NCBI GenBank assembly: GCA_011605865.1 | Contig: JAAOZI010000011.1 | Location: 1 to 33,790 of the forward strand | Reading direction: 5' to 3' | Origin: Archaeoglobales archaeon | Lineage (GTDB): Archaea > Halobacteriota > Archaeoglobi > Archaeoglobales > Archaeoglobaceae | DNA length: 33,790 nt | Shown: piece by piece, positions 422 to 19,807 of the stretch | Numbering within the stretch: the stretch's first letter is position 1 | Layout of the letters: the number at the start of each line of letters is the position of its first letter | Made by a program: the position numbers and the translations under genes | The notes under the pieces: model-generated | The model's input: only the letters and a program-made list of their open reading frames with translations | What the model was told of the DNA's origin: nothing | Database searches by the model: none

Positions 422-505
422 CCGCCCCGACTGCCCCGCAGATGACAGATGTATTCCCGAACAGATGCGGGGAACCCTCGCCCTTCAGGGCGGGGAGGAA
501 GTCAG
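422..505 (+). mobile_element. IS200/IS605 right end, putative omega RNA scaffold
   Basis: GC-rich, hairpin-rich tail directly after the tnpB stop. One hairpin pairs TTCCC near 453 with GGGGAA near 469-474. A stronger one pairs the C-rich arm at 477-483 with the G-rich arm at 488-497 around a TTCA loop. The end GGGGAGGAAGTCAG at 492-505 is typical of right ends in this family. In TnpB systems the tnpB 3' end plus this right end gives the guide (omega) RNA, with the guide read from flanking DNA, here from about 506. The element boundary is inferred from the motif; there is no empty site to compare. Confidence 0.65.
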
Positions 506-18703: not shown

Positions 18704-19069
18704 TCAATCTTTTGCCTTTACCAGCAGCCAAGAGTTTTCACCACCTTTTTCAAATTTTAGAAGTACATAAGTTCCTTTCAGCTTGTTTCCATTTAGCCTA
18801 AATTTTATTTCCTTCTCGGTTCTTTTCAACAATTCATATTCCCCCTTGTCCCAGATCTTAACGATTCCTTTTCCGTAACCTTCCTCTATGACACCCTCGA
18901 AGTCCATGTATTCTAGATCGTGATCTTCAACCTGAATTGCGAGTCTTTTTTCACCCTCATTAGGTAGACCCTTCGGTATTGCCCAGCTTTTTGCGACTCC
19001 ATCCATTTCTAGACGGAGATCGAAGTGATGCTTTCTTGCAAAATGTTCCTGAACGCAGAACCTCACCAT
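18704..19069 (-). CDS. Stand-alone DNA 3'-phosphoesterase (LigD PE domain)
   Basis: About 121 residues matching the phosphoesterase domain of bacterial LigD, which trims 3'-phosphates and ribonucleotides at DNA ends. Opening motif FCVQEHFARKHHFDLRLE carries the metal-binding histidines and Asp, followed by KSWAIPKGLP, AIQVEDHDLEYMDFEG and GYGKGIVKIWDKGEY. No ligase or polymerase domain is attached, as in other archaeal stand-alone forms. ATG 19069 overlaps the CarS stop and is only two bases from GGAGGTG; GTG 19066 has better spacing and is an equal candidate. A longer open frame to 19177 runs through carS and is not family-like. Confidence 0.88.
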   Translation of the reverse strand: MVRFCVQEHFARKHHFDLRLEMDGVAKSWAIPKGLPNEGEKRLAIQVEDHDLEYMDFEGVIEEGYGKGIVKIWDKGEYELLKRTEKEIKFRLNGNKLKGTYVLLKFEKGGENSWLLVKAKD

Positions 19070-19608
19070 GGCACCTCCTTCAGCTTTAACTTGAAAGCCA
19101 GAAAGTTCACAAGAACGTGTAGCACAGGAGTAATAAGAACTCCAATGAGTATATCTAAGCTTGTGAAGAGAAACCAAAATGCGTTTGTTAATGAGGCAAA
19201 AGCTAAAGAAAAGAGGAGAAAAGTAAGTTGATCTACTACAGGAAAGCTTCTTCCCCTCTCAAAGTTTAGCCTCCTCTTTATAAAGCTCCCAAAAAGATCG
19301 CCAAACATTGCACCGCACGACAAAGCGATCACCAAGATTATGAAATCTAGGTAGCCCAGCGCGGAAAAATATCGAAATTCGATAGCATTTTCAATCAGTC
19401 TTTGAACGTTTGCAACAAGAATTCCTCCCAAAATGCCTCCGAAAAAACCTGAAAAAGTTTTCCCGTCCCCAAAAATTCTTTTTCCGTCTATGAAATTTTT
19501 TCCGAAATCCATGGGCTTTATGCCTCCCAAGATTACTGCAAAATTATTGGGGGTGTAGGCTGGAAGTAGTAGCCAGATGACTTTCAGAACTTCAAAGATC
19601 ACATGCAT
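19063..19608 (-). CDS. carS: CDP-archaeol synthase
   Basis: Integral membrane enzyme of 181 residues (former DUF46) that makes CDP-archaeol from CTP and the digeranylgeranyl-glycerol phosphate lipid. Signature segments are LLPAYTPNNFAVILGG, the loop FGKNFIDGKRIFGDGKT, and GAMFGDLFGSFIKRR followed by GRSFPVVDQLTF, with hydrophobic helices between. Its product feeds enzymes such as the phosphatidyltransferase at 7309-7884. The start overlaps the preceding short gene by 17 bases and the end overlaps the phosphoesterase, so the three are probably one transcript. Confidence 0.94.
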   Translation of the reverse strand: MHVIFEVLKVIWLLLPAYTPNNFAVILGGIKPMDFGKNFIDGKRIFGDGKTFSGFFGGILGGILVANVQRLIENAIEFRYFSALGYLDFIILVIALSCGAMFGDLFGSFIKRRLNFERGRSFPVVDQLTFLLFSLAFASLTNAFWFLFTSLDILIGVLITPVLHVLVNFLAFKLKLKEVPW

Positions 19609-19807
19609 TCCTCCAATCGCAGTCTTTACAACCGGAAGCCTCGGCCTTCAGAGCGGGGAGGTCAGAAAAATCATCGGCACTTTCAACGACCTCAAATTTG
19701 CTAATATTTTTGTGAACTATTTTAATGATCTCTATAAATTCCTCATCATATCCTCTACCCTTGAAGAAATGGAGACAGATTAAGTTATGCCCTTTTAGCA
19801 TTTGCAT
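19592..19807 (-). CDS. Short DUF1284-like protein with altered C-terminus
   Basis: 71 residues. The first 50 look like DUF1284: MLKGHNLICLHFFKGRGYD followed by EEFIEIIKIV and SADDF. In that family, as I remember it, a DDICxxCP cysteine motif and about 40 more residues follow; here the DNA changes to one resembling an IS right end (19635-19665), encoding SDLPALKAEAS, and the protein stops soon after GCKDCDWRNACDL. The gene therefore looks truncated or remodelled. ATG 19807 or 19801 are possible; the TATA-like box at 19829-19838 favours 19807, leaderless. Function unknown; the remaining cysteines might still bind metal. Confidence 0.55.
   Translation of the reverse strand: MQMLKGHNLICLHFFKGRGYDEEFIEIIKIVHKNISKFEVVESADDFSDLPALKAEASGCKDCDWRNACDL
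19635..19665 (+). repeat. IS200/IS605 right-end-like sequence
   Basis: On the plus strand this matches the IS right end at 472-505: 24 of the first 27 bases are identical, then after a three-base gap both have TCAG, giving 28 of 31. The differences fall in the hairpin arms. No transposase remnant lies next to it; the minus strand is coding for the DUF1284-like protein. Probably a fossil right end or a miniature derivative. Confidence 0.6.

Follow-up and report, generated by a model that had tools for sequence, protein, structure and literature searches.

A decaying DUF1284 gene in an Archaeoglobales genome very probably carries a dead 36-bp terminal-only IS200/IS605-type element

The DUF1284-like gene that lies ahead of carS in an Archaeoglobales archaeon (assembly GCA_011605865.1) is very probably a gene in decay, which carries within its reading frame a dead terminal-only IS200/IS605-type element of 36 bp. 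The locus is represented by one incomplete, MAG-like assembly (1.27 Mb in 45 contigs, 84% complete), from which the window, i.e. the whole stretch of 33,790 nucleotides that was analysed, was taken; the other copies of the element in this source genome were read locus by locus. The features concerned are as follows.

19592..19807, minus strand: DUF1284-like gene remnant, 71 aa in translation, lacking about 60 internal residues through an in-frame deletion
19666..19807, minus strand: conserved N-terminal part of the DUF1284 gene, MQMLKGHNLICLHFF...ESADDF
19630..19665, plus strand: 36-bp terminal-only IS200/IS605-type element, made up of a left boundary, a single hairpin (broken) and GGTCAG as right boundary
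19625..19629, plus strand: TTTAC target (CL-like), directly adjoining the left boundary and included in the gene's Cys-Lys codons (TGT AAA)
19592..19629, minus strand: conserved C-terminal end of the DUF1284 gene, CKDCDWRNACDL and stop
19063..19608, minus strand: carS (CDP-archaeol synthase), overlapping the end of the DUF1284 gene
472..505, plus strand: intact right end of a tnpB element that is cut by the contig start

The DNA match between the locus and the IS element is far beyond chance. As observed in the earlier note, positions 19635-19665 align with the right end at 472-505 in 28 of 31 bases with one 3-base gap; this pair scored 22, against a maximum of 16 in 150 Markov-shuffled windows. 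Alignment with the consensus of the mini-elements described below (three mismatches and one 3-base gap over 41 aligned bases) gave a local score of 31 against a shuffle maximum of 15, again in 150 windows, and the reversed pattern, used as a control over the whole genome, yielded 0 matches. The earlier note had taken the locus for a right end. This holds for the right boundary, GGTCAG, which is common to the full elements, but the left boundary is present as well: leftward from the hairpin follow AACCGGAAGCC and then TTTAC, and the junction of TTTAC with AACCGGAAGCC corresponds to that of TTTAC with AACCGAAAGCC in other copies, in each case after a TTAC-like target. The locus thus reads AACCGGAAGCCTCGGCCTTCAGAGCGGGGAGGTCAG between TTTAC and AAAAATC, both boundaries being placed around a single hairpin, and since left boundary, hairpin and GGTCAG are all found there, the element spans 36 bp (19630-19665), one AGG or 3 bp less than the 39-bp form. 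A fossil consisting of a right end only was therefore rejected; the fossil is a complete minimal element with two ends.

Read on the minus strand, the element supplies 12 codons of the DUF1284 gene, encoding SDLPALKAEASG, the peptide that had been described for the locus, and a nearly identical 12-residue peptide was indeed read from the antisense strand of the copy at 472-505. A protein aligner places DLPALKA against the LDxLALxL stretch of orthologues, as would be expected if SDLPALKA were the remnant of a native ELDxLALxLL and its likeness to the IS accidental. Such convergence has next to no likelihood and was dismissed, given a DNA match far above chance and two boundaries at the correct places. 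Furthermore, among the 109 orthologues examined, none had the same DNA or peptide without an IS, the finding by which the earlier note would have had the match judged convergent.

The right end of the element was found, with at most 3 mismatches, at 37 places in the source genome. Among 56 relatives it occurs mainly in the source genome (31), in one congener, G006 (15), and in two members of another genus of Archaeoglobaceae. The left ends of the family in the source genome consist of TTTAC or TTTAT followed by AACYGAAAGCC. A candidate full IS of 1.7-2.1 kb spans a Y1 transposase (TnpA) gene; the genome has four matches to PF01797, and one open frame of 145 aa gives an E value of 1.8e-39. MITEs of 168-212 bp, in which the left and the right hairpin are separate, are located at C36:123335, C32:5364 and C20:8687, and about eight further single-hairpin elements of 39-40 bp have the same plan as the locus (C14:3427, C19:8672, C10:4407, C10:11849, C36:61451, C36:126205, C21:723 and near C13:19044). 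The single-hairpin copies elsewhere, 36-40 bp in length, have targets resembling TTTAC, TTAC or TTTAT. The genome thereby holds a graded series that leads from IS over MITE to single-hairpin stump. Two mini-elements are also present in congener G006 (L074, L076), where one (C137) sits at the extreme end of a variable gene. An in-frame position inside a recognisable conserved gene was not seen for the other mini-elements as far as they were checked, and recurrent in-frame insertion into genes, of the kind known from Rickettsia, was rejected on this ground.

Elements of 168-212 bp that have lost tnpA and tnpB and kept both ends (L014:1356-1524, L028:1314-1524 and, on the minus strand, L070) also retain the stretch rich in palindromes that precedes the right end. 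In TnpB elements this is the usual place of the guide-RNA scaffold, and these short elements may be served in trans by TnpB. Many contigs of the source genome begin or end close to copies of the family (C13, C15, C16, C18, C20, C32 and C38 start near one), and the IS copy number is therefore likely to be underestimated.

The stem of the copy at the locus carries substitutions in both arms (CTCGC to CTCGG and CAGGG to CAGAG). Folded as DNA, the locus forms no stem (centroid 0) and folds no better than shuffled sequences; the mini-element consensus folds into the subterminal palindrome at -7.4 kcal/mol. Judged from these substitutions, TnpA should no longer be able to act on the copy, which lacks a foldable palindrome and is classed as a degenerate remnant rather than as an active element; with its stem broken, mobility is not to be expected of it, nor is an RNA hairpin. 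The suggestion that a small hairpin RNA is made from the plus strand of the element, antisense to the operon, was accordingly abandoned as extremely improbable: intact copies do form a stable hairpin, but in the copy at the locus substitutions abolish the DNA hairpin and the RNA fold falls from -19.2 to -9.1 kcal/mol, and a search of Rfam at the locus gave no match to a known RNA family. An artefact of assembly or sequencing is also very improbable. Several contig ends in the genome fall in IS copies, and two frameshifts interrupt a Sir2 gene close to the contig start, but the copy at the locus has private variants (three substitutions and a 3-base deletion) that other copies do not share, and the sequences on either side of it come from a single gene and keep the correct order and frame.

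The DUF1284 gene is assigned from its N-terminus, its C-terminus and its synteny, and the locus is a remnant of a DUF1284 member, not a full member. The product of 71 aa, which is short for the family as had been claimed, consists of the family N-terminus as far as DDF, the 12 residues encoded by the element, and CKDCDWRNACDL*. Those last 12 residues are the true C-terminus of the family, congeners of 118-119 residues ending in ACKNCEWRGACDV, ACKNCEWQGACNV and ACRNCEWRVVCNV. The earlier view that the gene ends about 40 residues early, truncated at its 3' end, is excluded by this match: without the element 59 residues are left, so about 60 have been lost from the middle. An IS fossil does lie inside the gene ahead of carS, but its right end has not truncated it; the gene was hit by an internal deletion. 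Of the family motifs, RGHHLICL(H/N/Q)F near the N-terminus is recognisable as KGHNLICLHF, with two changes at near-invariant sites, and the CxxC(D/E)WxxxC motif that is found at the C-terminus of the orthologues examined is present as CKDCDWRNAC. The motif DD(I/V)CxxC(P), in contrast, is interrupted, reading DDFSDLPA, and the deletion follows. Against the Pfam model of DUF1284 (PF06935) the remnant scores 12.5 bits, below the cut-off of 25; intact proteins of congeners reach 64.3 and 74.7 bits. At near-invariant N-terminal sites the window copy has three changes, including RGHH to KGHN, the most among 30 sequences, although the excess is modest (3 vs at most 2 in the others). Lacking the cysteines of DDxCxxC...C and most of the middle domain, the product, if made, is probably non-functional.

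The gene keeps the genomic position that it has in congeners. In the window, as in Archaeoglobaceae archaeon SKYB47, a fully syntenic congener with an intact DUF1284 gene (L033/L087), the order is KorA-KorD-KorC, a divergent DUF1284 gene with carS downstream, then LigD_N-like and eIF2-gamma-like genes. Identity to this congener is 54% for the DUF1284 N-terminus, 67% for CarS and 88% for KorC; the first value is on its own a weak sign of decay, because a faster evolution than that of the neighbouring genes is possible for intact DUF1284 genes too. Measured from motif to stop, 109 of 110 DUF1284 loci have at least 115 residues and the window copy 68, and all 110 keep the C-terminal CxxC motif. 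The gene is intact in IS-rich congener G006 (L037), which harbours the same IS family, and likewise in congeners free of the IS. A second, intact DUF1284 copy was not found in the source assembly (84% complete). Taken together, the lost motif, the Pfam score below cut-off, the missing second copy, the N-terminal changes and the low identity point to gene decay. DUF1284 was mentioned in no paper of the literature searched.

When the flanks are joined without the 36 bp they read GAT GAT TTT/TGT AAA GAC TGC, i.e. DDF-CKDC, from which it follows that the TTTAC target lies in the Cys-Lys codons; read on the plus strand, TGT AAA becomes TTTACA, which the element uses as its target. The sequences DDVCKACP and ACK(N/D/S)C are frequent among orthologues, which often have Cys-Lys on both sides of the lost segment. 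A history in four steps would account for the locus. An element of the family would have inserted 3' of TTTAC in the Cys-Lys codons (TGT AAA), where the target and both boundaries are still visible. Either before or after insertion, the body of the element would have been lost by deletion between its two near-identical hairpins, as the anatomy of left boundary, one hairpin and right boundary suggests and as is known from Haloquadratum. About 180 bp, the segment now missing, would have been lost between two Cys-Lys/TTTAC sites, probably by deletion between short repeats and again before or after the insertion; the lost second repeat (DDF-CK as TGT AAA) is deduced from the flank and from orthologues, and congeners often use TGC there. 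Finally, the stem of the element would have decayed. Both the order of events and the empty site are reconstructed, from a single assembly of the species and from congeners that are too distant for an empty-site comparison.

The deletion could also have arisen from two terminal-only elements, or one such element and a MITE, inserted in the same orientation at both Cys-Lys sites and recombined into one chimeric element. Both boundaries abut gene sequence that lies about 60 codons apart in orthologues, copies of the family are many in the genome, and in Haloquadratum elements are frequent at the ends of deletions (PMC3119063). Nevertheless, two insertions in a gene of 120 codons would be required, whereas a short-repeat deletion is simpler and gives the same product, and recombination between two elements is considered rather unlikely.

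Since the Cys-Lys repeats share their codon phase and the element measures a multiple of three bases, the frame stays open without selection. A gene can thus be shortened in frame by the choice of target, TTTAC corresponding to Cys-Lys codons on the opposite strand, together with repeat-mediated deletion, and the open frame at the locus is no proof of function. One feature speaks against a complete loss of the gene: its end overlaps the start of carS, as it does in five congeners. The longest carS frame begins at ATG 19608; the start homologous to that of congeners is GTG 19602 (ATG in most congeners), with GGAGG seven bases before it, inside DUF1284 codons, and translational coupling to carS may have preserved the open DUF1284 frame. 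It is quite improbable that the 71-residue product is functional, the 12 element-coded residues having been recruited as a linker in a new short cysteine protein ahead of carS. The frame is indeed open through both changes, and the start, the CxxCxWxxxC end and the carS overlap are kept; against this stand a length of 36 bp and a codon phase of the repeats that hold the frame without selection, the loss of the middle domain and of the motif that is best conserved, the changed near-invariant N-terminal residues, and the restriction to a single genome. Domestication of the element as protein sequence, in which its 12 codons would stand in for the lost DUF1284 middle and the cell would make and use the product, or need its translation for the coupling of carS, appears just as improbable. 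The preferred reading remains a decaying gene, and annotators may list such a 71-aa remnant as a gene.

Both kinds of event have close precedents in archaea, and the locus is hence regarded as a clear case of gene decay and not as a new system. In Haloquadratum the core of IS605-type elements was lost between near-identical palindromes, leaving terminal-only elements of 52 bp, and direct repeats of 4-19 bp have also given rise to deletions there (PMC3119063). The locus resembles the terminal-only PATEs and IS605-type elements of Haloquadratum walsbyi (ISHwa23, HqIRS46; PMC3119063) in the single palindrome with fused left and right outer sequences, the loss of the core between near-identical subterminal palindromes, the lack of target duplication, the archaeal host and the presence of several copies. 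It differs in that the elements of the source genome are 36-40 bp long and belong to another archaeal lineage, and in that the copy at the locus lies in frame in a conserved gene, borders a deletion and has a broken stem. IS608 inserts 3' of TTAC, which it retains at the left, and is cleaved at TCAA on the right (PMC5934647); a TTAC-type target at the left, a subterminal hairpin and a TCA(A/G) right site are shared with such IS200/IS605 ends, but here the right end is TCAG, the target TTTAC or TTTAT, and the locus copy one hairpin without genes. For the history of the locus, the Haloquadratum and IS608 cases would serve as precedents rather than as tests. Like the palindromic elements of Rickettsia, which are in-frame intragenic MITEs (reviewed in PMC10969869), the locus has a short palindromic element that is read as host protein; unlike them (about 150 bp, recurrent in many genes), it is IS605-derived, a single copy in one decaying gene, with no sign of retained function. 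REP/RAYT elements (PMC2817692) share the single short hairpin tied to Y1 transposases, but REPs are extragenic and paired with RAYT genes, whereas the ends at the locus agree with those of a classical TnpA/TnpB IS. The known range of terminal-only IS605 elements is hereby extended to an Archaeoglobaceae genome, with lengths down to 36-40 bp.

Elsewhere in the window, the Sir2-family gene (PF02146; 606-1400, plus strand) appears to be broken by frameshifts at two places, around 1018 and 1295; this would reflect either the decay of a second gene or errors in the assembly close to the contig start. Downstream of it, at 1430-1572 on the plus strand, lies a fragment without a start that, judged by eye, resembles the C-terminal end of a GNAT-type acetyltransferase (AKGDLAELWVGETNEQAMKFYEFKGFRLAGKYGNG).
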